Assembly: GCA_026387915.1 (NCBI GenBank)
Contig: JAPLKS010000004.1
Coordinates: 1 to 64,000, forward strand
Direction of reading: 5' to 3'
From: Gemmatimonadota bacterium
GTDB taxonomy: Bacteria; Gemmatimonadota; Gemmatimonadetes; Gemmatimonadales; Gemmatimonadaceae
Length of the DNA stretch: 64,000 bases
A model generated the notes under the pieces. It searched no databases, was not told the origin of the DNA, and was given only the letters and a program-made list of their open reading frames with translations. Below, piece after piece: positions 1 to 12,843 of this stretch. A program made the translations under genes and the position numbers. How positions within the stretch are numbered: position 1 is the stretch's first letter; each line of letters opens with the position of its first letter.

Positions 1-208
1 CCGCTTCAGCGCGTCGGGCGTATGGGTGCGTGAACACGGCGGCCCCGTGCGCGATGGCGAGGTGCTCCCGTCGTTCCCCGCGCTCTACGCCGGGCGCATC
101 ACCGGCACGAGCATGTCGCTCACCGTCACGCGCACCGATTCCGCCGTCGCAATCGGCACGTTCTCTCTCACCAAAGGGAGCGCCGCAAGCGTGTTCAAAT
201 GCCTGTGA
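1..208 (+). CDS. C-terminal end of an unrecognised protein (partial)
   Basis: An open frame runs in from the left edge (first whole codon at base 2) and stops at TGA 206-208. The visible 68 residues contain the stretch GRITGTSMSLTVTRTDS, a beta-strand-like pattern, and end in KCL. I do not recognise a family. The last ten bases overlap the start of the TrpF-like gene, so the two are probably co-transcribed. The real start lies outside the window. Confidence 0.5.
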   Translation, partial: RFSASGVWVREHGGPVRDGEVLPSFPALYAGRITGTSMSLTVTRTDSAVAIGTFSLTKGSAASVFKCL

Positions 209-846
209 TGAAAGTGTGTTGCATCGCGTCGCTCGACGAAGCTGAACTCGCGTCGTCGCTCGGCGCCTATGCTATCGGGCTGGTGTCGGCGATGCCGAGC
301 GGGCCCGGGCCGATCCCTGACGAACTGATCGCCGAGATCGCCGCCGCCGCGCCGACGCATCTGCAGAAGTTCTTGCTGACGTCGCGCCTCGACGCCGACG
401 AAATCGCGCAGCAAGTGATGCGCGCCGGCACCAATACGGTGCAGATCGTCGATGCGCTCGCGTCGGGTTCGCATGCGCGGCTTCGTGATCTCATCCCACA
501 TGTTCAGCTTGTGCAGGTCATCCACGTGACGGGGGAGGGAAGCATTCGCGAGGCGGAATCGATTGCCGCCGAGGTGGACGCGATTCTCCTCGACTCCGGC
601 AATCCGACGGCGAAAAGCAAAGAGCTCGGCGGCACCGGCCGCACGCACGATTGGGCGGTGAGCCGCGCCATCGTGAAGGCCGTCGGCATCCCCGTGTACC
701 TCGCCGGCGGCCTGCGGGCGGAGAACGTGGCCGAGGCGGTGGACGTGGTGCGGCCGTTCGGCGTGGATGTGTGCAGCGGCGTGCGGACCAATGGCGCGCT
801 CGACGCCGAGAAGCTCGCCGCGTTCGCGGCGGCGATTCCGGGCTAG
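199..846 (+). CDS. TrpF-like (phosphoribosylanthranilate isomerase family) protein
   Basis: 215 residues with the layout of a TIM-barrel PRA isomerase. The N-terminal KVCC (Cys7) stands where family members have the KICG catalytic Cys, an Asp lies in ILLDS (about residue 132), GGTGRTHDW follows at 144-152, and LAGGLRAENV and GVDVCSGV form the phosphate-gripping end. Genuine TrpF catalyses an Amadori isomerisation in tryptophan synthesis. Two deviations argue for caution: KICG has become KVCC, and the usual F.P.SPR segment after the first strand is replaced by SAMPSGPGPIPDE. No other trp gene is nearby. The start ATG overlaps the upstream stop, and the stop overlaps the stop of the convergent membrane-protein gene. 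It may be a diverged isomerase with another sugar-phosphate substrate. Confidence 0.75.
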   Translation: MPVMKVCCIASLDEAELASSLGAYAIGLVSAMPSGPGPIPDELIAEIAAAAPTHLQKFLLTSRLDADEIAQQVMRAGTNTVQIVDALASGSHARLRDLIPHVQLVQVIHVTGEGSIREAESIAAEVDAILLDSGNPTAKSKELGGTGRTHDWAVSRAIVKAVGIPVYLAGGLRAENVAEAVDVVRPFGVDVCSGVRTNGALDAEKLAAFAAAIPG

Positions 847-1142
847 CGGCCCGGCGGGGTCTTGGGATCCGTGCGGCCCGCCGTCTCCGTCGAACGCGGC
901 GGCTTGGGCGCGTCGAACCAGTTCCACGGCGTACGCATCCATAGGAACGCGCGCCACACCGCCGCCGATCGCCCACGCCACCAACGCAGCCCCAGGCGCG
1001 TGCCGGCAAACTCCACGATCCACGTGAGCACGAAGACGACCAACAAAATCACCAACGCTATTGGCCAGAGCGGAATGGCCAGCAATGCCAACGCCGCCAC
1101 CACGGGGGCGAGCAGAAAACAGGGGCCAATCGCGAGTACCAT
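843..1142 (-). CDS. small membrane protein of unknown function
   Basis: 99 residues. Residues about 3-50 are almost entirely hydrophobic (LLAPVVAALALLAIPLWPIALVILLVV) and form one long or two short membrane segments. A Trp/Arg-rich stretch (LRWWRGRSAAVWRAFLWMRTPWNWF) and a Pro/Lys-rich tail follow, likely cytoplasmic. No family recognised. The stop overlaps the convergent TrpF-like stop. The ATG has no Shine-Dalgarno, but TAGATT lies 7 bases upstream, which fits a leaderless transcript. Confidence 0.6.
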   Translation of the reverse strand: MVLAIGPCFLLAPVVAALALLAIPLWPIALVILLVVFVLTWIVEFAGTRLGLRWWRGRSAAVWRAFLWMRTPWNWFDAPKPPRSTETAGRTDPKTPPGR

Positions 1143-1149
1143 GCGGGGG

Positions 1150-1155
1150 AATCTA
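1150..1155 (-). promoter_or_regulatory. -10 element (TAGATT) placed for a leaderless mRNA
   Basis: Read on the minus strand, TAGATT is followed by 7 bases and then ATG at 1142, so transcription would begin at or next to the start codon. No convincing -35 is seen. Part of a pattern repeated across the window. Confidence 0.4.
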
Positions 1156-1268
1156 GGCCGCGCGTCGTGGCGCGTGCCCGCGCGATGCAGGGCCGACCCG
1201 CCATCCTGCGGCCGGAGATGATATGTTATGAGTGTGCAGAAAAGTCCCTCTCGTGGCGGAGCCCGGCG

Positions 1269-1721
1269 ATGAACTCGATGAACGGAAAAATTCTGGCGCT
1301 GCTCTGTGGCGCTACGCTACTCGTCCCCGCCACGCAGTGGGCCCAAAGCGCGCCGGCACCTGCGACGGAAGCGCGCAAAGGTCCCGCAACGCCACCGCCG
1401 TTGTTTTTCATTGACGGCGTCAAGCAAACGCCGCCCAAAGCCGCCGCAGAACCCACGGCGAACCGCAACGACGCGCGGGCAGTGACCACGTCCGATGCGG
1501 CCAAGGCCAGCGCTCCCGCCGCTCCCGCCGCTCCCGCCGCTCCCGCTAAGGTGCCGTCGCCCGCGCTGCTCGACTCCTGCGCCGCCTGCGCGGCAATCCG
1601 CCCGGAAGACATTGCGTCCGTAGAAGTGTTGAAGGGTGCGAAAGCGATCGAGCTCTACGGCGTTGAAGCCACCTACGGCGTCGTGCTCATCGTCACCAAG
1701 CCGGGCGCCAAAAAGCCCTGA
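1269..1721 (+). CDS. secreted protein with an isolated TonB-plug-like segment
   Basis: 150 residues from ATG 1269, chosen because GGAG at 1258-1261 sits 7 bases upstream and a signal peptide follows directly (KILALLCGATLLVPATQWAQS). The middle is a low-complexity Ala/Pro linker encoded by a 9-base tandem repeat. The C-terminus, SVEVLKGAKAIELYGVEATYGVVLIVTKPG, closely resembles the conserved end of the plug domain of TonB-dependent receptors (I..VEVLKG..A..YG..A..GVI.I.TK), yet no barrel follows. Before it lies LLDSCAACAAIRPEDI with three Cys. Function unknown; such orphan plug segments may be protein-interaction modules in the periplasm. Expression as a secreted protein is likely. Confidence 0.7.
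   Translation: MNSMNGKILALLCGATLLVPATQWAQSAPAPATEARKGPATPPPLFFIDGVKQTPPKAAAEPTANRNDARAVTTSDAAKASAPAAPAAPAAPAKVPSPALLDSCAACAAIRPEDIASVEVLKGAKAIELYGVEATYGVVLIVTKPGAKKP
1512..1547 (+). repeat. 9-bp tandem repeat, four units, in coding sequence
   Basis: Unit GCTCCCGCC repeated three times exactly, then once as GCTCCCGCT, encoding Ala-Pro-Ala repeats in the linker of the secreted plug-like protein. A whole-codon unit, so copy change would not shift the frame. Confidence 0.8.
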
Positions 1722-1809
1722 CCGACTGCGGCGCGCACCCCCTGCGCCCGCTCGGGCCCAGCTGCGCCCATCCCGCGCCCCTTGACGCGGCGCCGAAAGT
1801 AAGCAACCT

Positions 1810-1831
1810 TTCATCCGGATATACGGATGAA
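1810..1831 (+). promoter_or_regulatory. 22-bp palindrome over the start codon: probable operator of the ArsR-type regulator
   Basis: Left arm TTCATCCG (1810-1817), spacer GATATA (1818-1823), right arm CGGATGAA (1824-1831); the arms are perfect reverse complements. The ATG of the downstream regulator (1827-1829) lies inside the right arm, so bound repressor would block transcription or initiation. ArsR-family proteins bind inverted repeats of this kind. No Shine-Dalgarno is visible upstream. Confidence 0.6.
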
Positions 1832-2759
1832 GAAAAACCCTGTCTTCGATCGCCTCACCGCGCTCGCCGACCCGATTCGTGCCCGGCTCCTGCTCATCCT
1901 CGAGCGGCACGAACTCACGGTCGGCGAACTGCGCTCGGCTCTCCAGCTCCCCCAGAGCACGGTGAGCCGGCATTTGCGCGCGCTCGCGGATTCCGGCTGG
2001 GTCGTGAGCCGCGAAGATGGCACCAGCAATCGCTATCGCATGCCCGTGCGTGAACTCGACGCCGCCTCGCGCCGGCTCTGGCAGTCGGTGCGCGACGACT
2101 TCGGCGCACACGCCACCGCCGCCCGCGACGCCGAACGCGTGCGCGCCGTGCTCGCCGACCGACACTCCACGAGCCAGCAGTTCTTTGCCTCGAGTGCCGC
2201 GCAGTGGGATAAACTCCGCGCCGAACTCTTTGGCGCGCGCACCGAACTCTACGCCCTCCTCGGGCTGCTCGATCGCAACGCGATCGTCGGCGACCTCGGC
2301 TGCGGTACCGGTCAACTCGCTGAGGCGGTGGCACCGTTTGTTAAACAGGTGATTGCCGTGGACGAATCCACCGCGATGTTGCGTGCCGCGCGCGCGCGAC
2401 TCGCGGGGCTCAAGAATGTGGACGTCCGTCAGGGCACACTCGAGACACTCCCGCTGGAAGAAGGCGAGCTCAATGTGGCGATCCTCAGTCTCGTGCTGCA
2501 CTACATCGCCGATCCCGCGCACGCGTTGGCGGCCGTGCGCCGCGCCCTCGCCGTGGGCGGCAAAGCCTTGATTGTGGACATGCTCCCACACGACCGCGCC
2601 GAACTGCGCGACACGATGGGGCACGTCTGGCTCGGCATCGGAGAGCAACAGCTGCACACGTGGGCGTTCGAGGCGGGCTTTACGCAGTGCATCGTGCACG
2701 CGTTGCCGCCCACGCCAAACACCAAAGGTCCGACTTTGTTCGCGGCGACATTGATGTAG
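1827..2759 (+). CDS. ArsR-family regulator fused to a SAM-methyltransferase domain (SahR-like)
   Basis: 310 residues. The N-terminal ~95 residues are a winged helix of the ArsR type (LADPIRARLLLILERHELTVGELRSAL, then QSTVSRHLRALADSGWV as recognition helix). A class I methyltransferase domain starts near residue 145, with DLGCGTGQLAEAVAP (motif I), VDESTAML (motif II) and LSLVLHYIADPAHAL (motif IV). Regulators with this architecture beside ahcY are known as SahR in Proteobacteria, where S-adenosylhomocysteine is the ligand. Here ahcY follows 96 bases downstream in the same direction, supporting control of methyl-cycle genes. The methyltransferase domain may act as the ligand sensor rather than an enzyme. 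No metal-binding Cys pair of the ArsR kind is visible. Confidence 0.85.
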   Translation: MKKNPVFDRLTALADPIRARLLLILERHELTVGELRSALQLPQSTVSRHLRALADSGWVVSREDGTSNRYRMPVRELDAASRRLWQSVRDDFGAHATAARDAERVRAVLADRHSTSQQFFASSAAQWDKLRAELFGARTELYALLGLLDRNAIVGDLGCGTGQLAEAVAPFVKQVIAVDESTAMLRAARARLAGLKNVDVRQGTLETLPLEEGELNVAILSLVLHYIADPAHALAAVRRALAVGGKALIVDMLPHDRAELRDTMGHVWLGIGEQQLHTWAFEAGFTQCIVHALPPTPNTKGPTLFAATLM

Positions 2760-2855
2760 CGCCGTCACCCGATGGTTCCAGCTCCACCACGCATCCCGTT
2801 CGCAACGCATCACGCATTTCATTTATCAACCGTTTCTCCCCTCACGAAAACCCTC

Positions 2856-4373
<1,518 letters not shown>

Positions 4374-4389
4374 ACGGCTACGGCAGTTA

Positions 4390-4458
4390 ACGGTTTTCCG
4401 TTTTCCGTTATCCGTCATTTATAACCGAAAACGGAAAACGGTAAACGGTGAACGGTCT
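4390..4458 (+). repeat. heptad-repeat hairpin after ahcY
   Basis: Two 22-base arms (4390-4411 and 4421-4442) pair with only two mismatches around a 9-base loop, giving a strong hairpin that may end ahcY transcription, although no clean T-run follows. The right side continues as 7-base units ACGGAAA, ACGGTAA, ACGGTGA, ACGGTCT (4431-4458). The same ACGGNNA periodicity is found at 32264-32291 and, reversed, at 59238-59265. Confidence 0.7.
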
Positions 4459-4595
4459 ACAGTAGTTGGTAGTCCGTCCTCGCTCGAAGCCGAACAGCAA
4501 CCGTCCGCGCCCCCCACCCGGTGCGCGGACGGTTTTTGCGTTCGCCCGGGCCCGCCCACTCGCGGCCACCGCCAACATGCGGCAGATTTTCCACC

Positions 4596-6239
4596 ATGAC
4601 ATCCAGCCGCCGCTCCTTTCTTGCAACTAGCGCCGCCGTCGCCGCCGCTGCCTGCACCCCGCTCACGCGTCTGGCGAGCCCGAGCCGAGCGATTCTCATT
4701 AAGGGCGGCACCGTCGTCGACGGCACCGGCGCACGGCGCGTGGTGGCGGATGTGCTGATAGAGAATGGCATCGTTCGCGAGATCGGTCCCAATCTGCAGT
4801 CGAGCGGCGCCGACGTATTAGACGCCCGCGGATTGATTGTCACTCCAGGATTTGTGGACATTCACTCGCATGGCGACGGCGGTATCACCGCCGATCCCAT
4901 GGCGGAGTCGCTCGTGCGACAGGGGGTGACCACCATCGTCGTGGGGCAGGATGGCTCGAGCAATGGTCCGCGCGAGCAAGATGACCCCGACGCGCGCTTC
5001 ACCTCCATTGGACAGTATCTCACCTCGCTCACACGCGATGTGAAGCCGGCCGTGAATGTGGCGACGATGGTCGGGCTTGGGACGGTGCGCGGCGCCGTGG
5101 TTGGCCCTGCGGATCGCCCCGCCACGCCCGACGAACTGCGGCGTATGACGGCGCTCGTGGCGCAGGCGGTGCTCGAAGGGGCCTGCGGCGCGAGCACGGG
5201 TCTCGAGTATGCGCCCGGCGCATTCGCGAGCATTGATGAACTCATTGCGCTGTGCAAGCCACTCGCAGCCAAGCGCTTGCCATACTCCACGCACATGCGC
5301 AACGAAGACGACACCCTCGTGGAGGCGGTGGACGAAGCGATTGCGATTGCGCGCGGCGCCGGCGTGCCGCTCCAGATTGCGCACCTCAAAACGAGTGGCG
5401 TGCGGAACTTCAGCAAGATCGACACGGTGCTCGCGCGTATTGATGCCGCAAAGATCAGCGGCATGGACGTGGCCTTCGATCGCTATCCGTATGTCGCGTA
5501 TTCCACGGGGCTCAGCAACATGTTTCCCGTGTGGGCACTCGACGGTGGCAGCGCCAAGTTTGTGGCGCGCCTCGAGTCGCCAGCCACCGCGGCCAAGGTG
5601 CGCGCCGAGTCTGAGGCCAAAGCCGCGACGGTGGGAGGATGGCACAATGTGGCCATCTCCGGCGTCAGCAATGCGGCCGACCGTGCCGCCGAAGGGCAGC
5701 GCGTGGATGACCTCGCGAAGGCCGCCGGTGTGGCGTCATACGAGTACGCCGCCGGATTGCTCAAGCGAAATGGCGGGAGCGTCGGGACGGTGGTCTTCGC
5801 GATGAGCGAGGACAATCTCAAACGCTTTCTCGCGCATCCGCTGGGCATGGTGTGCAGCGACGGCGGCTCCTTTGCCGTCAGCGGCGCGTCGCGTCGCGGC
5901 CATCCGCATCCGCGTGGGCTGGGTTCGTTCCCGCGCGTGCTCGCCAAGTACGTACGCGAGTCGGGCACGCTCTCGCTCGAACAAGCGGTCTACAAGATGA
6001 GTGGCTTTCCCGCCTCGCGCCTCGGACTCGGCGCCGGCGTGGGCGTACTTAAAGTGGGAGCGGCCGCGAACGTCGCCGTCTTGGATGCTGCGACCGTGGC
6101 GGATGGCGCGACGTTCGCCGATCCGTTTCAGTATCCCACGGGCATCCCGTACGTTGTGGTCAACGGCGTGGTCGCGCTACGGGACGGCGAACGCTCGCAC
6201 GAGCGCAGCGGGCGCGCCTTGCGCGCGGTGGGGCGGTAG
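4596..6239 (+). CDS. N-acyl-D-amino-acid deacylase (D-aminoacylase family amidohydrolase), Tat-exported
   Basis: 547 residues from ATG 4596. SSRRSFLATSAAVAAAAC is a twin-arginine signal whose hydrophobic core ends in AAAC, so it may be a Tat lipoprotein. The mature part starts ILIKGGTVVDGTGARRVVADVLIENG, the beta-sandwich opening of amidohydrolases, followed by the metal-binding GFVDIHSHGD, GACGASTGLEYAPG, STHMRNED, IAHLKTSG and CSDGGSF, all characteristic of D-aminoacylases that release D-amino acids from N-acyl forms. The cell-surface location fits scavenging of D-amino-acid derivatives or wall fragments. The stop codon lies inside the palindromic repeat at 6235-6312. The dipeptidase at 7449 is a functional neighbour in peptide breakdown. 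Confidence 0.88.
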   Translation: MTSSRRSFLATSAAVAAAACTPLTRLASPSRAILIKGGTVVDGTGARRVVADVLIENGIVREIGPNLQSSGADVLDARGLIVTPGFVDIHSHGDGGITADPMAESLVRQGVTTIVVGQDGSSNGPREQDDPDARFTSIGQYLTSLTRDVKPAVNVATMVGLGTVRGAVVGPADRPATPDELRRMTALVAQAVLEGACGASTGLEYAPGAFASIDELIALCKPLAAKRLPYSTHMRNEDDTLVEAVDEAIAIARGAGVPLQIAHLKTSGVRNFSKIDTVLARIDAAKISGMDVAFDRYPYVAYSTGLSNMFPVWALDGGSAKFVARLESPATAAKVRAESEAKAATVGGWHNVAISGVSNAADRAAEGQRVDDLAKAAGVASYEYAAGLLKRNGGSVGTVVFAMSEDNLKRFLAHPLGMVCSDGGSFAVSGASRRGHPHPRGLGSFPRVLAKYVRESGTLSLEQAVYKMSGFPASRLGLGAGVGVLKVGAAANVAVLDAATVADGATFADPFQYPTGIPYVVVNGVVALRDGERSHERSGRALRAVGR

Positions 6240-6312
6240 CGACGCGACCAGCGTGAAAACCGGTCGCAGTCGCTACCACGCGACCGACGTGTAGTCCGGT
6301 CGCGTCGCTACC
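6235..6312 (+). repeat. palindromic intergenic repeat between convergent genes
   Basis: Perfect 15-base arms GGTAGCGACGCGACC (6235-6249) and GGTCGCGTCGCTACC (6298-6312), with a near copy of the second arm, GGTCGCAGTCGCTACC, inside at 6262-6277. Two nested hairpins are possible. It lies between two converging genes and contains the stop of the upstream one. It could be a bidirectional terminator or a REP-like dispersed element. Confidence 0.7.
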
Positions 6313-6326
6313 ATCGCCACGCGCCC

Positions 6327-7376
6327 TCAGCGCATCCACACGACTGCATAAAACGGCCCGCGCCGCGACCCTGTCGTTTGCACTGGCCGGCATCCCGCGC
6401 CGCGCAAGTAGCGTGCGATCGTCCCCGAGCTCTCGCTCCCCGGCGGGTACAGCTCCACCATTTCCACCTCGCTCGTGTCGTACGAATCGAGCGTGAGGTT
6501 GCCCACGATGCGGCGGCCGTCGAGCAGAACGCACGCCATGCTGTTCACGACTTGGAGATCCAGCACGAGCATCGCCGAACTCGGCGAGCGCATCACGGCC
6601 TGCCCCAGCGGGAGATCGTCGAATGGCTCGAGATCTTGCCGCGACAGCACCGCCGCGCGTCCACCGCGCGAGACAATCCGCTGCTGCGCATCGGCCCACG
6701 CGGCCTCCACGAAGTTGGAACTGCCGCTCAGTTCGGCGAGGCGCGTCGCCGACGTGTGCAAGCTGTCGAGCAGGTTGAGATGGAGGACGATGCCGCGTGT
6801 ATCTTCGAACCGCAGACTCACCACTCCCATTTCGTACCCCGGCTTTCTGCCTTTCACCACCAGAGGGCCTGGGCGCAAGTTCGTAAACGAGAACCAGCCG
6901 TCCGGTCCGGACGTCGTGGTCGCGTGCCCCGCGCCCACCAAGTCCACGATTGCGCCCGCGAGCGGGTAGCCGCTCGAATCGGTCACCACACCGGCCAAGA
7001 TTTTCACCTTGGCTTCCACCAGCACGGTGTCGAGTTGCGCCGGTGCCGGCACGAGTTCCACATCGACCGTCGTGGTGGCGTTGGCCTTCACCAAAATGTT
7101 GGCCACCGCCGGCAGGAACCCGACTTTGCGGACGCCGAGCATACGAGCCCCGGGCGCGATCGACGGAAAGACGAACGTGCCGTCCCCGTTGCTTCGAATG
7201 CGAATGGTGGCGCCACCGATCGAGATTTCGGCGTCTGGAACCGGGCGACCATCGGCGAGCGTCACCTTGCCCGAGACGCTCGCGGGGAGCGGTTGGTCGC
7301 GCACAATTTGTGCGCGCGCACGGAGTGGCAACGCGAGAGCGAGGAGAGTCACGACAGTCAGTCTGAGCGCGCGCAT
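6327..7376 (-). CDS. secreted protein with two carboxypeptidase-regulatory-like domains and a plug-like end
   Basis: 349 residues from ATG 7376, which has GAGGA 5-6 bases upstream on the minus strand; a TTG 12 bases earlier is the alternative. A signal peptide (LRLTVVTLLALALPLRARAQ) is followed by a CarboxypepD_reg-like repeat (SGKVTLADGRPVPDAEISIGG...FVFPSIAPG) and a second (AGVVTDSSGYPLAGAIVDLVGA...WFSFTNLRPG). The C-terminus (VVNSMACVLLDGRRIVGNLTLDSYDTSEVEMVELYPPGSESSGTIARYL) resembles a TonB-receptor plug without a barrel. Such proteins are common in Gemmatimonadota; function is unknown. It probably acts in the periplasm or at the outer membrane. Confidence 0.8.
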   Translation of the reverse strand: MRALRLTVVTLLALALPLRARAQIVRDQPLPASVSGKVTLADGRPVPDAEISIGGATIRIRSNGDGTFVFPSIAPGARMLGVRKVGFLPAVANILVKANATTTVDVELVPAPAQLDTVLVEAKVKILAGVVTDSSGYPLAGAIVDLVGAGHATTTSGPDGWFSFTNLRPGPLVVKGRKPGYEMGVVSLRFEDTRGIVLHLNLLDSLHTSATRLAELSGSSNFVEAAWADAQQRIVSRGGRAAVLSRQDLEPFDDLPLGQAVMRSPSSAMLVLDLQVVNSMACVLLDGRRIVGNLTLDSYDTSEVEMVELYPPGSESSGTIARYLRGAGCRPVQTTGSRRGPFYAVVWMR

Positions 7377-7435
7377 GGGCTTCCTCAAGAAAGGGGGTCG
7401 GGCCGAGGCGGGGGGCGGCGCCGTTCTGATATGGC

Positions 7436-7441
7436 TATAAT
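7436..7441 (+). promoter_or_regulatory. -10 element (TATAAT) placed for a leaderless mRNA
   Basis: A perfect TATAAT is followed by 7 bases and then ATG 7449 of the dipeptidase. No Shine-Dalgarno precedes that ATG. No good -35 is seen in the G-rich stretch upstream. Confidence 0.5.
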
Positions 7442-7448
7442 GATACCC

Positions 7449-8726
7449 ATGAACCTTCTTCGCTATGCCGCCCTGCTCGCCTGCGCCGGCTCCCTCAGCG
7501 CCCAGGCCCCCGCGTCGAAATCAGCGGCCGACGCCCTCGCTCACGCCAAGGCAATCCTCGCCACCACGCCCCTCGTGGACGGCCACAACGATCTGCCGTG
7601 GGCCATTCGCGAAAGCAAAACGGCGCCGCGCGACGTCGGGGCCTATGACCTCCACAAAACTACGCCGCACCAGACCGACCTCGCACGCATGACCGCGGGC
7701 AAGCTCGGCGGTCAGTTCTGGAGCATCTACATCCCGGGAGAAGTGAAGGACTCGGGCTTCGCGCGCATCCAGCTTGAGCAGTTCGACATCGCACGCCGCA
7801 TTGTGGCGATGTACCCCGAGAAACTCGTCGCAGCCTCCACCGCCGCCGATATCCGCGCGGCATTCAAGAAGGGCAAGGTCGGCTCGATGCTCGGACTCGA
7901 AGGCGGACACGCCATTGAGAACTCACTCGGCGCCCTCCGCATGTACTACGACCTCGGCGCGCGCTACATGACGCTCACGCACAACGTCACGCTCGACTGG
8001 GCCGACGCCGCGCTCGACAGCGCCAAACACAACGGTCTCACGCCGTTCGGCAAGGAAGTCGTGCGCGAAATGAACCGGCTCGGCATGTTGCTCGATCTGT
8101 CGCACGTCTCACCGGCGGTCATGAGCAACGCGCTCGATGTCACCGAATCGCCGGTGATCTTCTCGCATTCGTCGGCGCGCGCGATCGTGGACCACAAGCG
8201 CAACGTGCCGGACTCGATTCTCCGTCGCCTCCCCAAGAATGGCGGCGTCGTGATGGTGACGTTCGTTCCAGGCTTTGATTCGCCGGCGGTGTTCGCACAC
8301 GCTGCTGCCCGCACGACTGCAGCGGCCGATGCACGTCGTCGGCTCGGCACGGATGCCGCCGCGATCGCGCGTGACATGAAGACGTGGGACGCCGCACACC
8401 CCGCGCCGCACGCGACCATCGGGGACGTGGCGAATCATCTCGACCACATCAAAAAAGTGGCCGGCCCCAATCATGTGGGCATCGGGAGCGACTTCGACGG
8501 TGTGGACGATGATCTGCCAGACGGACTTCAGTCGCAGGCCGATTACCCCGCGCTGTTCGCCGAACTCATTGTGCGCGGCTGGAGCGATGCCGACCTGCGC
8601 AAACTCGCCGGCGAGAATGTACTCCGCGCGCTGGGCACCGCAGAGAAGGTGGCCAAGCGGCTCCAGAAGGAACGGCCGCCGTCCACGAAGACCATCGACC
8701 AGCTCGACCGCGGCCCCAAGATGTAA
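7449..8726 (+). CDS. membrane dipeptidase (peptidase family M19)
   Basis: 425 residues with a signal peptide (LLRYAALLACAGSLSAQA). M19 metal ligands are visible: DGHNDLPW (His and Asp near the N-terminus), GLEGGHAIEN (bridging Glu), SHSSARAIVDHKRNVPD (two His) and GSDFDGVDD (Asp). The family cleaves dipeptides, including D-amino-acid-containing ones, using two zinc ions. ATG 7449 is preferred because TATAAT stands 7 bases before it; in-frame ATGs at 7431 and 7440 would overlap the promoter. The secreted D-aminoacylase upstream suggests joint use of peptides outside the cytoplasm. The stop abuts the convergent carH stop. Confidence 0.93.
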   Translation: MNLLRYAALLACAGSLSAQAPASKSAADALAHAKAILATTPLVDGHNDLPWAIRESKTAPRDVGAYDLHKTTPHQTDLARMTAGKLGGQFWSIYIPGEVKDSGFARIQLEQFDIARRIVAMYPEKLVAASTAADIRAAFKKGKVGSMLGLEGGHAIENSLGALRMYYDLGARYMTLTHNVTLDWADAALDSAKHNGLTPFGKEVVREMNRLGMLLDLSHVSPAVMSNALDVTESPVIFSHSSARAIVDHKRNVPDSILRRLPKNGGVVMVTFVPGFDSPAVFAHAAARTTAAADARRRLGTDAAAIARDMKTWDAAHPAPHATIGDVANHLDHIKKVAGPNHVGIGSDFDGVDDDLPDGLQSQADYPALFAELIVRGWSDADLRKLAGENVLRALGTAEKVAKRLQKERPPSTKTIDQLDRGPKM

Positions 8727-9680
8727 CTAGCGCGCGTTCAGTTGCTCGTTGAACCAGATGCGTAACTGAACCAACGTGAGCAAGCGCGTGGCATCGACTT
8801 CCTTGATGACGCGCTCGTAGCCACCGGATCCGCTCCCGCCCACCACCAGCTTGGTGTGCGGGAGCGCTGCGCGTAATGCCCTCAACTCGCTGGGCAGCCG
8901 CACGTCGTCGCTTGGCACCACAATGCTCAGCGCAACTGCCGTGGCGTTGGTACGCTGCGCTGCTTCCACAAAGTCGGCCGCCGGCAGATTGCCGCCGAGG
9001 TAGAGCACGCGCCATCCGGAGGTGGCGCCCGCGGCAGCGGCGAGCATCGCGCCCAGCTCGTGCACGTGACCAGACGGCGTCCCCACCACCACAAGCGGTG
9101 CCGCCTTCGAGGCCTGCGCGCCTTCCATCATCCAGCCCAGTGTCTGGCGAATGACCTGCGAGGCCATGTGCTCACTGGCAGGCCGTAGCACACCTTGGTG
9201 CCAGAGCGAGCCGATGGTGAAGAGCAGGGGGCTGAGGACCCCTTCGAGCATCTCGTCCACACCGAGGTAGAGAGCGGCGCGGCGAAGAATGGCTTCGAGT
9301 GCTCGGTCGTCGTGGTTCTCAGCCGCTTGGAGCGCCGCCGCGAGTACGGAGTCGCCCGATGATGTTGAGACGGCGGCGTTGCTCGAGTCGCTCGCCATCT
9401 TGAGCGATTTCGCTTCTTTGTCGACGAGCGCCTGCAGCGCTTCGGTGGTGTATGGCGCGACGTGGCTGATCGGCCATCCGGCGTCCACAGCCTGACGCAA
9501 CAGCGTGAGGCGGGTGATGTCGGCGCTGGAGTAGAGCCGCTGCCGCCCCGATGACCGCGACGGAGTCACCGCGTTGTAGCGGCGTTCCCAAGCGCGCAGG
9601 AGATCAGGACTCAATCCGGTACGTTCCACCACGGCTCGAACTGGATGCAGCGTGTCGATGCTGGGAAGCTCTGAAGTCAT
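8727..9680 (-). CDS. carH: CarH/LitR-type B12-dependent light-sensing MerR repressor
   Basis: 317 residues. The N-terminus is a MerR winged helix (HPVRAVVERTGLSPDLLRAWERRYNAVTPSRSSGRQRLYSSADI). A helical B12-cap domain follows, containing the diagnostic W-x9-EH (W..., then EHMASQV; about residues 170-185). The cobalamin-binding Rossmann domain has GHVHELG, where the second His is the expected lower ligand of cobalt. In the family, adenosylcobalamin in the dark holds a DNA-bound tetramer, and light breaks it. ATG 9680 is chosen over 9716 because a -35/-10 pair on the minus strand (TTGACA, 17 bases, TACATT) would start transcription near 9699. It is divergent from the SRPBCC gene. Confidence 0.9.
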   Translation of the reverse strand: MTSELPSIDTLHPVRAVVERTGLSPDLLRAWERRYNAVTPSRSSGRQRLYSSADITRLTLLRQAVDAGWPISHVAPYTTEALQALVDKEAKSLKMASDSSNAAVSTSSGDSVLAAALQAAENHDDRALEAILRRAALYLGVDEMLEGVLSPLLFTIGSLWHQGVLRPASEHMASQVIRQTLGWMMEGAQASKAAPLVVVGTPSGHVHELGAMLAAAAGATSGWRVLYLGGNLPAADFVEAAQRTNATAVALSIVVPSDDVRLPSELRALRAALPHTKLVVGGSGSGGYERVIKEVDATRLLTLVQLRIWFNEQLNAR

Positions 9681-9705
9681 CAGTGTCCAGAATGGATGTC
9701 TGAAA

Positions 9706-9774
9706 AATGTAAGCATTGTCTAACTATTTGTCAATAAAAGCTGGACATTTATAATCTCGACAGTTATTGTCCAG
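9706..9774. promoter_or_regulatory. divergent promoters with probable CarH operator
   Basis: Minus strand: TTGACA (9734-9729), 17 bases, TACATT (9711-9706) for carH. Plus strand: TTGTCA (9728-9733), 16 bases, TATAAT (9750-9755), and a second pair TGGACA (9742-9747), 17 bases, TATTGT (9765-9770), which lies 6 bases before the SRPBCC ATG. The two facing -35 boxes share the bases TTGTCAA. Arms CTGGACA (9741-9747) and TGTCCAG (9768-9774) form an inverted pair around the plus-strand -10, and TGTCCAG recurs at 9684-9690. This spacing is what a MerR-type light-dependent repressor controlling itself and its neighbour would need. Confidence 0.65.
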
Positions 9775-9776
9775 AT

Positions 9777-10268
9777 ATGGAAAGCATCTTGTCCACATCT
9801 ATTACCGTCCCGCTCGGTCGCGCTGAAGTCTTTGACTTCTTTGCAAATGCCGAGAATCTCGGTCGCGTCACGCCGCCTGAACTTTCGTTCCGTATCGACT
9901 CGCCGACCCCGGTGCCGATGGCCGAGGGCACGCTGATTGACTACACGATTCGGCTGCACGGCGTGCCGATGCGCTGGCGTACGCGCATTGCGGCGTGGGA
10001 GCCGCCGGACGTGTTTGTGGACGAGCAGTTGAAGGGACCGTATGCGCAGTGGGTACACACGCATCGGTTGACCGAGGTTCCAGGCGGCGTGCGGATTGAT
10101 GACACGGTCCGCTACGCGTTGCCGCTTTGGCCGCTGTCAGCCGTGGTGCATCCGCTTGTGCGGCGGCAGTTGCGACGGATCTTCACCTTCCGTCAGGAGA
10201 CGGTGGCGTCACTGCTGCTTGGCGCTCGGGCGCACCTCGCCACGATTGCGCCGGTCCGCTTCAGCTAG
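9777..10268 (+). CDS. SRPBCC-fold ligand-binding protein, probable CarH target
   Basis: 163 residues. The sequence STSITVPLGRAEVFDFFANAENLGRVTPPELSFRI is the usual opening of the START/Bet v1-like SRPBCC family, followed by GTLIDYTIRLHGVPMRWRTRIAAWEPPDVFVDEQLKGPYAQWVHTHRL. Members bind hydrophobic ligands, and homologues occur in LitR/CarH light-response clusters with photolyase and lipid genes; no such partners follow here. Its promoter is interwoven with that of carH, so light induction is the natural inference. The end overlaps the convergent phosphatase gene by 8 bases. Confidence 0.85.
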   Translation: MESILSTSITVPLGRAEVFDFFANAENLGRVTPPELSFRIDSPTPVPMAEGTLIDYTIRLHGVPMRWRTRIAAWEPPDVFVDEQLKGPYAQWVHTHRLTEVPGGVRIDDTVRYALPLWPLSAVVHPLVRRQLRRIFTFRQETVASLLLGARAHLATIAPVRFS

Positions 10269-10923
10269 CGTCGCCGAGAACGAGGGCGCGCAGTTCGGCG
10301 AACGATGACACGACGTGATCGGCGCCCGCCACGACGGCGTCACGCGTAATAAATCCCGTGAAGGCCGCAAAGGCATCGGCTTCGCCCGCCGTGCGCATCG
10401 CGAGATCGGTGCTACCGTCGCCAACGGCGAGCAGTGGTCGGGGGAGGGCAATGAGTTGCGCCATCGTCACCTTTCCGCTCTCCGTGGCCAGCGCCGTCCG
10501 CAGGTCATAGCCGTCGTAGTAGCCGCGCTCGTCGTGAAAGGTGCGCACGGCGTGCACGTCGGCCTCGTCAATGCCCAGCGATTCGGCGAGCGGGAGAATC
10601 GCTTCATACAAGCCGCCGCTCACCACTGCCACGCGCACCCCAGCGTCGAGGAAGGCGCGCACGGTGTCGGCCGCGCCAGGTGCCACCTTCATGCGATACG
10701 CGAGTCCCAACGTCTGGCATTCCGCGAGGGTCGGCGCCACGGCGTCGAGTCGTTCGCGGTAGACGCTGTCGAGTGTCACGCGGCCCGACATCGCGTCGTC
10801 GGTGAGTTTGGTCACGCGCACTCGGAGCGCATCGCTCCGGTGAGCGGCAAGCCAATCGATCCCTTCAATGCCAGAGAGGGTCGAGTCCACATCCAGAATG
10901 ACCGAAGCAAAGCGCGGGGTCAT
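10261..10923 (-). CDS. serB: HAD-family phosphatase, phosphoserine phosphatase-like
   Basis: 220 residues. Motif I DVDSTL (nucleophile and acid/base Asp near residue 11), motif II VVSGG, and motif IV GDGSTDLAM are intact; the cap-region ESGKVTMAQL supplies the conserved Lys. Order and length match SerB-type HAD IB enzymes, which make serine from phosphoserine. DVDST replaces the more common DFDST or DxDGT. Other small-molecule phosphatase activity cannot be excluded. Likely monocistronic, with 146 bases separating it from the divergent GNAT gene. Confidence 0.8.
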   Translation of the reverse strand: MTPRFASVILDVDSTLSGIEGIDWLAAHRSDALRVRVTKLTDDAMSGRVTLDSVYRERLDAVAPTLAECQTLGLAYRMKVAPGAADTVRAFLDAGVRVAVVSGGLYEAILPLAESLGIDEADVHAVRTFHDERGYYDGYDLRTALATESGKVTMAQLIALPRPLLAVGDGSTDLAMRTAGEADAFAAFTGFITRDAVVAGADHVVSSFAELRALVLGDAS

Positions 10924-11069
10924 AGGGCAGCTGGGAGAGTGTGGCGATGGAAGCGCAGACCGTACTTAGGAAAGGTATAGACGGTGTCTCACATTGACAT
11001 CCGCTGGGGGGATGGCGCGCCGGCCGGGGGGGAGGAACCACGGGCGCGCTGGCGCTACCTTTCGGCGCA

Positions 11070-11597
11070 ATGACAGCATCCTTCCAGTTTCGTGACATTG
11101 GCCCGGACGAGGCGGCCGCGTATTCGCGCTTTGCCCGCGACATCTTTGTGGCCACTTACGGCCCGCACTATCCGGCGGCTCGGCTCGAGCGACATGTGCG
11201 CGCCGCCTTCAGTGAAGCCGCGCAGCGGCAGGAACTGTTGGATGCGCGTCGGACGTCGATTGGCGTCTACACCGACGACGGCGCGATGGCAGGATTTGTG
11301 GTGATGCACCGCAGCGACACGCCGCCCGAAGTGGTGGGCGCTCGTCCCGTGGAGGTCGAGCGCTTCTATGTGGGCGAGGCGCATCACGGCGCTGGGCTGG
11401 CCATGCGCCTGATGAACACCGCCCTCGAGCGCGCGACTGCCAATGGGCACGACGCCGTCTGGCTCAGCGTGTGGCGCGAAAATGCGCGCGCGATTCGCTT
11501 TTACGAAAAGGCAGGCTTCGCGCGGGCTGGCCGAATTGAGTTTCTCTTTGGTGGCGAAATGGAACTCGACACCCTCATGGCGCGTACCCTTCCATAG
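11070..11597 (+). CDS. GNAT-family N-acetyltransferase
   Basis: 175 residues. The acetyl-CoA region is seen as VERFYVGEAHHGAGLAMRLMNTALERA (a Q/RxxGxG/A-like loop, here HHGAGLA) followed by VWLSVWRENARAIRFYEKAGFARAGR, the classic end of RimI-like GNATs. The substrate is unknown. The N-terminal FRDIGPDEAAAYSRFARDIF is also typical. The start ATG 11070 has no evident ribosome-binding site. The next gene starts 37 bases later with its own good site. Confidence 0.85.
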   Translation: MTASFQFRDIGPDEAAAYSRFARDIFVATYGPHYPAARLERHVRAAFSEAAQRQELLDARRTSIGVYTDDGAMAGFVVMHRSDTPPEVVGARPVEVERFYVGEAHHGAGLAMRLMNTALERATANGHDAVWLSVWRENARAIRFYEKAGFARAGRIEFLFGGEMELDTLMARTLP

Positions 11598-11634
11598 TTA
11601 CCGTACACCGTTCCCCCCACTCGCAGGAGTTTCG

Positions 11635-12843
11635 ATGGTACGTGTCCTCCGCTTGAACCGCGTGCTTTCGCTCGCGATGCCCACGTTGGCGGCGCTCGTC
11701 GCCAGCGTCGCGCCGACCAGCGTCCGCGCGCAATCCCGCTCGTTTGTGGTGCGTCTTGGCGCTGACACGTCGCGTATCGAGAAGGTTGTCCGCACGGGTA
11801 ATAAGATCGACGGCACCGTCGTGAGTCATCTCCCGACTACGTCCGTGCTCAAGTATGCGATCACGCTGAATGCAGACGGCACCGTGGCGAGCTACGAGCA
11901 AGGCTCCTATCGGGGCGACGGCACGCCCGCGCCGAACTCTCCGCAGGGGGTGCAGGCGACGGGGATTCGCATCGCGTTCGCGTCGGATAGTGTCACGCGG
12001 TCGTGGACGGCCAATGGCCAGCCGGTGTCGCGCCATCACGCCGTGCCAAAGGGAACGCTCCCGAGCATCGGCGGCTCGTACGTGATTGTGGAAATGGGGA
12101 TCGCTGCCGCGCGCGCGGCGGGTTCTACGAGCTACAAAACGATCTCCGCCACCTCGGCGCAGGACAATCCGAGCACCGTCGATCTTGTACTGGTGAGCGC
12201 GGATTCGGTGGAAGTGGTGCAGCAAGGATTCCGCACAGGATACAAGCTCGATAAGAACGGACGCATTGTGCGCGGCGATGGCTCGCTCACGACGCAGAAG
12301 CTGATTGGAATGGCGGCGGGTGACATCGATGCCGACGCGCTCGCCAAGGGTTGGGCGGCGCGCGATGCGGCGGGGCAGGGCGTGGGCGTGGCGTCCACGC
12401 GCGACACCGCGCGCGCCACGCTCGGCGGCGCGACGGTGACGCTCGACTACGGCCGCCCCGCCAAGCGCGGACGCGAGATTTGGGGTGCCCTCGTGCCGTT
12501 CGACACCGTCTGGCGCTTTGGTGCCAACGCGGCGGCGCAGCTCAAAACCGATAAAGATCTCGATATTGGCGGAACCACCGTGCCCGCGGGCGCGTACACG
12601 GTGTGGCTACTCCCCACCAAGGGAACCTCGCTGCTGGTGATCAGCAAAAAGACGGTGGACGAGCGCGGCACGCCCCTCTGGGGCACGGGGTACGACCCGT
12701 CGCAGGACCTCGCCCGTATTCCGCTGGCGAACCACAACGGCCTCCCCGAGCTCGAGGAGCGGTTTCATGTATTTTTCCAGGGCGACCTGCTCATGCTGCA
12801 CTGGGACAAAGCCGGATTTGGCGTAAAGGTAAAGGCCAAGTAA
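11635..12843 (+). CDS. secreted DUF2911-domain protein
   Basis: 402 residues from ATG 11635, with AGGAG at 11625-11629. A signal peptide (VLSLAMPTLAALVASVAPTSVRAQ) precedes about 200 residues of unrecognised beta-rich sequence. The C-terminal ~150 residues are DUF2911 (ATVTLDYGRPAKRGREIWGALVPFDTVWRFGANAAAQLKTDKDLDIGG...PAGAYTVWLLP). Function unknown; DUF2911 proteins are frequent in Bacteroidota and Gemmatimonadota and are presumed periplasmic. A strong terminator follows at 12884. Confidence 0.85.
   Translation: MVRVLRLNRVLSLAMPTLAALVASVAPTSVRAQSRSFVVRLGADTSRIEKVVRTGNKIDGTVVSHLPTTSVLKYAITLNADGTVASYEQGSYRGDGTPAPNSPQGVQATGIRIAFASDSVTRSWTANGQPVSRHHAVPKGTLPSIGGSYVIVEMGIAAARAAGSTSYKTISATSAQDNPSTVDLVLVSADSVEVVQQGFRTGYKLDKNGRIVRGDGSLTTQKLIGMAAGDIDADALAKGWAARDAAGQGVGVASTRDTARATLGGATVTLDYGRPAKRGREIWGALVPFDTVWRFGANAAAQLKTDKDLDIGGTTVPAGAYTVWLLPTKGTSLLVISKKTVDERGTPLWGTGYDPSQDLARIPLANHNGLPELEERFHVFFQGDLLMLHWDKAGFGVKVKAK

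Follow-up and report, generated by a model that had tools for sequence, protein, structure and literature searches.

A SahR-like regulator and its predicted operator at methyl-cycle genes of Gemmatimonadota and several other phyla

The window analysed here, the first 64,000 nt of contig JAPLKS010000004.1 from a Gemmatimonadota bacterium, carries a gene for an ArsR-methyltransferase fusion, hereafter sahR, followed on the same strand by ahcY. The gap of 96 nt between the sahR stop codon and the ahcY start, and a gene order kept in nearly all related loci, suggest that the two are probably co-transcribed. Domains, gene order, operator, conservation, targets and position relative to promoter elements were all determined by computation. 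The features are:

1782–1787, + strand: probable −35 element TTGACG, proposed for the source genome from the TTGAC conserved in relatives
1804–1810, + strand: probable weak −10 region CAACCTT, from the column profile, aligned with TATCCT of relatives
1810–1831, no strand: perfect palindrome TTCATCCG-N6-CGGATGAA, by inspection of the window sequence
1813–1828, no strand: operator core ATCCGGATATACGGAT (ATC-N10-GAT), predicted SahR site, from comparative conservation and the promoter profile
1827–2759, + strand: sahR-like gene, ArsR HTH and class I methyltransferase fusion of 310 aa, from the ORF, domain searches and structure model
1947–1976, + strand: recognition helix LPQSTVSRHL, residues 41–50, from alignment A1 (AF2 helix 43–55)
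2274–2585, + strand: methyltransferase fold, residues 150–253, with motif I DLGCGTG and acidic D179 (SAM/SAH pocket), from Pfam, alignment and structure model
2856–4373, + strand: ahcY, S-adenosylhomocysteine hydrolase (TIGR00936, 599 bits)

The reading frame of sahR is the only sensible one, because an in-frame TAA lies upstream at 1800–1802 and no alternative start codon precedes the HTH domain. Pfam places HTH_5 at residues 15–59 (8.6e-12), and HTH_metalloreg exceeds its curated cut-off, as expected of an ArsR-type winged HTH; Methyltransf_11 at residues 156–249 (1.2e-19) supplies the SAM/SAH-binding fold. The recognition helix is invariant in alignment A1 save V46, and the pocket residues D156, G158, G160, G162 and D179 are invariant across 31 aligned sequences. 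The AF2 model is confident (pLDDT 93.6). SAH-bound Rv2258c is among its best structural matches, by domain rather than by overall arrangement, since whole-length TM-scores are near 0.45 and the rmsd is large. The fusion beside ahcY, and the palindrome over its start codon, both read from the letters alone in the original prediction, were thus borne out: the 8-bp arms TTCATCCG-GATATA-CGGATGAA form a perfect inverted repeat, and the ATG (1827–1829) falls in the right arm.

By size the palindrome is not significant: a 64-kb window should contain about one perfect inverted repeat with 8-bp arms and a 6-base spacer (64,000/4^8). The evidence for an operator is for that reason comparative, and the palindrome gains its significance through position and conservation. 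The repeat had also been offered as a means of finding the regulon. The full 22-mer is too long for this, with one exact match in the genome and no excess over control at 3 mismatches, but its 16-bp core ATCCGGATNNACGGAT (ATC-N10-GAT), the working unit for our searches, does find metF-metH.

The 18-mer ATCCGGATNNACGGATGA, with 16 specified bases, has exactly two perfect copies in the 3.58-Mb genome, where arithmetic predicts about 0.002. One is the window site at sahR-ahcY; the other, the only other exact core site of the genome, is at C17:280669, in the metF-metH promoter, some 120 bp before the metF gene, which metH follows. The suggested scan therefore did lead to a further site near methionine-cycle genes, and sites at these targets are found again in related genomes and in other phyla. 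The predicted sites at sahR-ahcY and metF-metH cover ahcY, metF and metH of the expected regulon, and ATCCGGATATACGGAT provides the conserved ATC-N10-GAT palindrome at the regulator's own promoter. Near metK (C13:16704-17852) there is no site within 3 mismatches; we treat metK as variable regulon content and not as a defining feature of the SahR family. At locus L005 an MFS transporter gene (6833-8119, HpaX-like, below cut-off) is divergent from metF, and the metF operator between the two might act on the transporter too.

We sampled 99 relatives from the genus, family and order. SahR orthologs occur in 58 of them, with more distant paralogs besides, and the exact 14-base core yields 57 sites in 39 of the 99 genomes vs 0 for the reversed pattern. 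The core is present in 38 of the 58 genomes with the sahR gene and in 1 of the 41 without it (38/20/1/40); the Fisher p-value of 1.5e-11 is an indication only, because related genomes are not independent, and the gene count behind it omits genomes with only a metF-linked paralog or a partial distant match. The single genome with the core and no detected sahR gene (G002) has the metF site. Essentially all orthologs in the order with at least 50% identity have the operator at the sahR start, and the surrounding upstream regions diverge. The second conserved target is metF-metH, found throughout the genus and in G039 (L086-L101, L105); in G047 a site lies at metH, with the metH ATG again inside the right arm. 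Another six sites, exact or nearly so, are not close to met genes (L087, L103, L104, L106-L108); since these fall inside coding genes or long ORFs, we attribute them to chance.

From a genome collection we took the 80 closest sahR loci (43-74% identity). Their labels are mainly Gemmatimonadota, Acidobacteriota, Planctomycetota, Latescibacterota and Binatota; a few others (Bifidobacterium breve, Acidimicrobiia) are probably misbinned contigs. Of these 80 best loci, 71 match the core in at least 12 of its 14 bases at the sahR start, vs 0.075% of 4000 control windows; the other nine score below 12/14 at the expected place (e.g. L182, L208, L212). Nearly all of the best loci whose contig reaches far enough have ahcY next after sahR. 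Planctomycetota have the operator upstream of metH as well (L260, L262, L263, L265, L267, L272, L274, L285) and upstream of metF (L266, L269, L270). In other phyla, most sites with a single mismatch were attributed to chance. The proposal of a SahR-like sensor outside Proteobacteria is thus well supported, operator and ahcY, metF and metH targets recurring in several phyla, and the predicted site probably governs enzymes that clear or recycle SAH in at least five phyla beyond Proteobacteria. A literature search returned no report of a ATCCGGATATACGGAT-type operator sequence, nor, in the papers searched, of SahR in Gemmatimonadota, Acidobacteriota, Planctomycetota, Latescibacterota or Binatota.

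SahR is known as an SAH-responsive ArsR regulator of sahR, ahcY, metH, metF and metK in Proteobacteria, and ATC-N10-GAT is the consensus common to gamma-proteobacterial SahR and SamR sites (PMC4239095). The alphaproteobacterial SahR proteins (Rhizobium leguminosarum WP_017961326, Sphingomonas) are likewise ArsR-methyltransferase fusions beside metF(-metH) with a palindrome just upstream, but share only 31-37% identity with the window protein and differ in helix (GQSQPRVSRHL) and operator (ATAAAGATATCTTTAT). A tree of 63 proteins places the ahcY-linked group apart from the group of alphaproteobacterial metF-linked SahR (support 100/99). Recognition helix and operator vary together between clades: LPQSTVSRHL goes with ATCCGGATATACGGAT, GQSQPRVSRHL with ATAAAGATATCTTTAT and, in Leptospira, MGQSRVSRHL with ATCAAGATATCTTGAT. 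By sequence, the window protein and its relatives form a clade distinct from the alphaproteobacterial SahR sampled, with its own helix LPQSTVSRHL and half-site CGGAT.

Some Gemmatimonadota have a paralog (L134-L137, in G033, G020, G025 and G043) of 31-36% identity, which adjoins metF-metH or metH and groups in the same tree with alphaproteobacterial metF-linked SahR. At L135 its palindrome, TAAGGATA-GCTTTA-TATCCTTA, has 17 of the 19 bases of the alphaproteobacterial site. G020, G025 and G033 hold both SahR types, which seem to divide the methyl cycle between them.

Leptospira interrogans (L255) resembles the window in its regulator-ahcY-(4Fe-4S)-metH order and in a perfect ATC-N10-GAT palindrome, GGATATCAAGATATCTTGATATCC, of 24 bp at 3918-3941, ending 5 nt before the annotated regulator start. 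It departs from the window in protein (29% identity), helix (MGQSRVSRHL) and half-site (TTGAT); the two operators are identical at 11 of 16 positions and have ATC-N10-GAT in common. We regard L255 as a probable SahR system in Spirochaetota. In D. vulgaris we take DVU0606 to be SahR. Its annotation is that of an ArsR/UbiE-type methyltransferase fusion (PMC11784015), and DVU0607 is AhcY (PMC3125180). The SahR of Deltaproteobacteria (Desulfovibrio) comes from Novichkov et al. 2014, a study cited by Leyn et al. 2014 (PMC4239095). Compared by published descriptions, it is alike in ArsR family, apparent sahR-ahcY pairing, palindromic operator and targets sahR, ahcY, metH and metF, whereas the window system differs in its half-site ATCCG/CGGAT and in having no metK target. 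SamR of Xanthomonadales, a distant SahR homologue, also has ATC-N10-GAT and controls met genes, but with a 24-bp motif, no ahcY, and metK in the regulon (PMC4239095). What is new relative to known SahR is the clade, the half-site and the phyla, and the finding is wider than originally stated.

Promoter layout was read from column conservation in 100 non-redundant sahR promoters; a plain sigma-70 consensus scan of the window reports no promoter at sahR, so that the promoter rests on this comparative profile. Conserved are TTGAC about 31-32 bp before the operator, a 17-bp spacer, TATCCT at −9 to −4, the 16-bp operator and then about four A/T-rich bases. Given normal −35/−10 spacing, transcription is predicted to start inside the operator, at about its fourth base. 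In 62 of the 100 promoters the start codon falls at operator position +14, inside the repeat. It lies there because the predicted mRNA leader is only about 10 nt long, and not through an action on translation; such a leader should leave no room for a Shine-Dalgarno sequence. In metF promoters the operator occupies the spacer between TTGAC and TAnACT, and the two layouts together point to occlusion of RNA polymerase. The tight autoregulation by blocking initiation that had been proposed therefore holds for initiation of transcription, with the start site inside the operator, but not as a block of translation. The −10 element TATCCT doubles as an ATCC half-site, with the next half-site 8 bp away; in the window the −10 region overlaps a third half-site, shifted 8 bp. 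Since the metF sites also consist of three half-sites, ATCCGTTC-ATCCGGAT-ATACTGAT, overlapping dimer sites are likely.

We consider it very likely that an SAH-responsive repressor of SahR type blocks transcription of sahR-ahcY and metF-metH and is released by SAH. From what is known of the family, the protein would bind the site, would repress rather than activate, and would have SAH as its ligand. A SahR dimer would bind ATC-N10-GAT (ATCCG-N6-CGGAT). At sahR-ahcY this site covers both the predicted transcription start and the start codon, and at metF-metH it sits between the −35 and −10; because of this overlap the bound repressor would exclude RNA polymerase. On build-up SAH, the by-product of methylation, would occupy the SAM/SAH pocket in the methyltransferase fold at the C-terminus, and the loaded repressor would leave the DNA. 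AhcY, MetF and MetH would then be made together with more repressor, for SAH disposal and homocysteine remethylation.

The same operator and regulon could answer instead to SAM, as corepressor or through the SAM/SAH ratio, in line with a proposal made for the SamR regulator of Xanthomonadales. In its favour, the pocket is of a generic SAM/SAH type, and Leyn et al. do not settle which effector SamR has (PMC4239095). It was SamR regulons holding metK without other SAM-cycle genes, however, that suggested SAM to these authors (PMC4239095), whereas here the target found most constantly is ahcY, and metK has no site; we judge SAM an unlikely effector. Control at the mRNA level, by a hairpin over the start codon or an RNA-binding protein that blocks translation, would account for the 62 promoters with the ATG inside the repeat. 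The predicted transcript, however, begins inside the repeat and would lack part of the left arm. Many relatives have the ATG outside the arm, and the identical site upstream of metF lies far from the start codon, in the promoter. Folding of the start region was no better than that of shuffles (z 0.67), and the RNA hairpin was dropped; we give mRNA-level control very little credence. A chance repeat, with the ArsR-methyltransferase a mere neighbour of ahcY, would suit the expected count per window and the behaviour of the 22-mer, but is refuted by the 57 exact sites vs 0 reversed, and by the 71 of 80 loci against controls. It is also contradicted by sites kept at promoter-specific positions across several phyla, by the presence of two separate target promoters and by the tendency of site and gene to occur together; we regard it as almost certainly wrong.

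A bolder picture is possible, which we hold only tentatively. A second, ancient SahR branch, with the LPQSTVSRHL helix and CGGAT half-sites, may act in many Gemmatimonadota, Acidobacteriota and Planctomycetota as the chief methyl-cycle switch. In its operator, ATCC/GGAT half-sites would follow one another at 8-bp intervals like the rungs of a ladder, the −10 being one rung and the start codon another; two overlapping dimers would compete there directly with the sigma factor, and the pocket would read the SAM/SAH balance, not SAH alone.

SahR has been described as a proteobacterial regulator, and the same logic, with an operator conserved at the nucleotide level, is now found in several other phyla. 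In lineages whose regulation is little known, the operator can be used directly to predict the regulon. The three clades, each with its own pairing of helix and half-site (CGGAT, TTGAT or AAGAT), make a natural test set for DNA specificity in the ArsR family, and the sahR promoter, being almost leaderless, illustrates how compact an autoregulated promoter can be.

Riboswitch control of ahcY was rejected: window positions 1-12000 have no Rfam match to an SAH (RF01057) or other methionine-cycle riboswitch upstream of ahcY, and none exceeds the cut-off in the 99 related genomes. Sub-threshold SAH-riboswitch-like matches occur at L290 (G085, 33.7 bits) and L291 (G031, 31.9 bits), where the cut-off is 37. 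Directly 3′ of ahcY, at 4385-4455, is a hairpin of 7-bp CCGTTTT units (DNA fold z −2.95). The 17-mer CCGTTTTCCGTTNTCCG, allowing at most 1 mismatch, has 25 copies in the genome vs 0 for the reversed pattern, some of them in inverted pairs, and represents an interspersed palindromic repeat family. Upstream of sahR, positions 1167-1721 encode a small, seemingly secreted protein that has an (AAP)n stretch and, without a barrel, a TonB-plug-like end that carries a SusC/RagA signature (TIGR04057, below cut-off).
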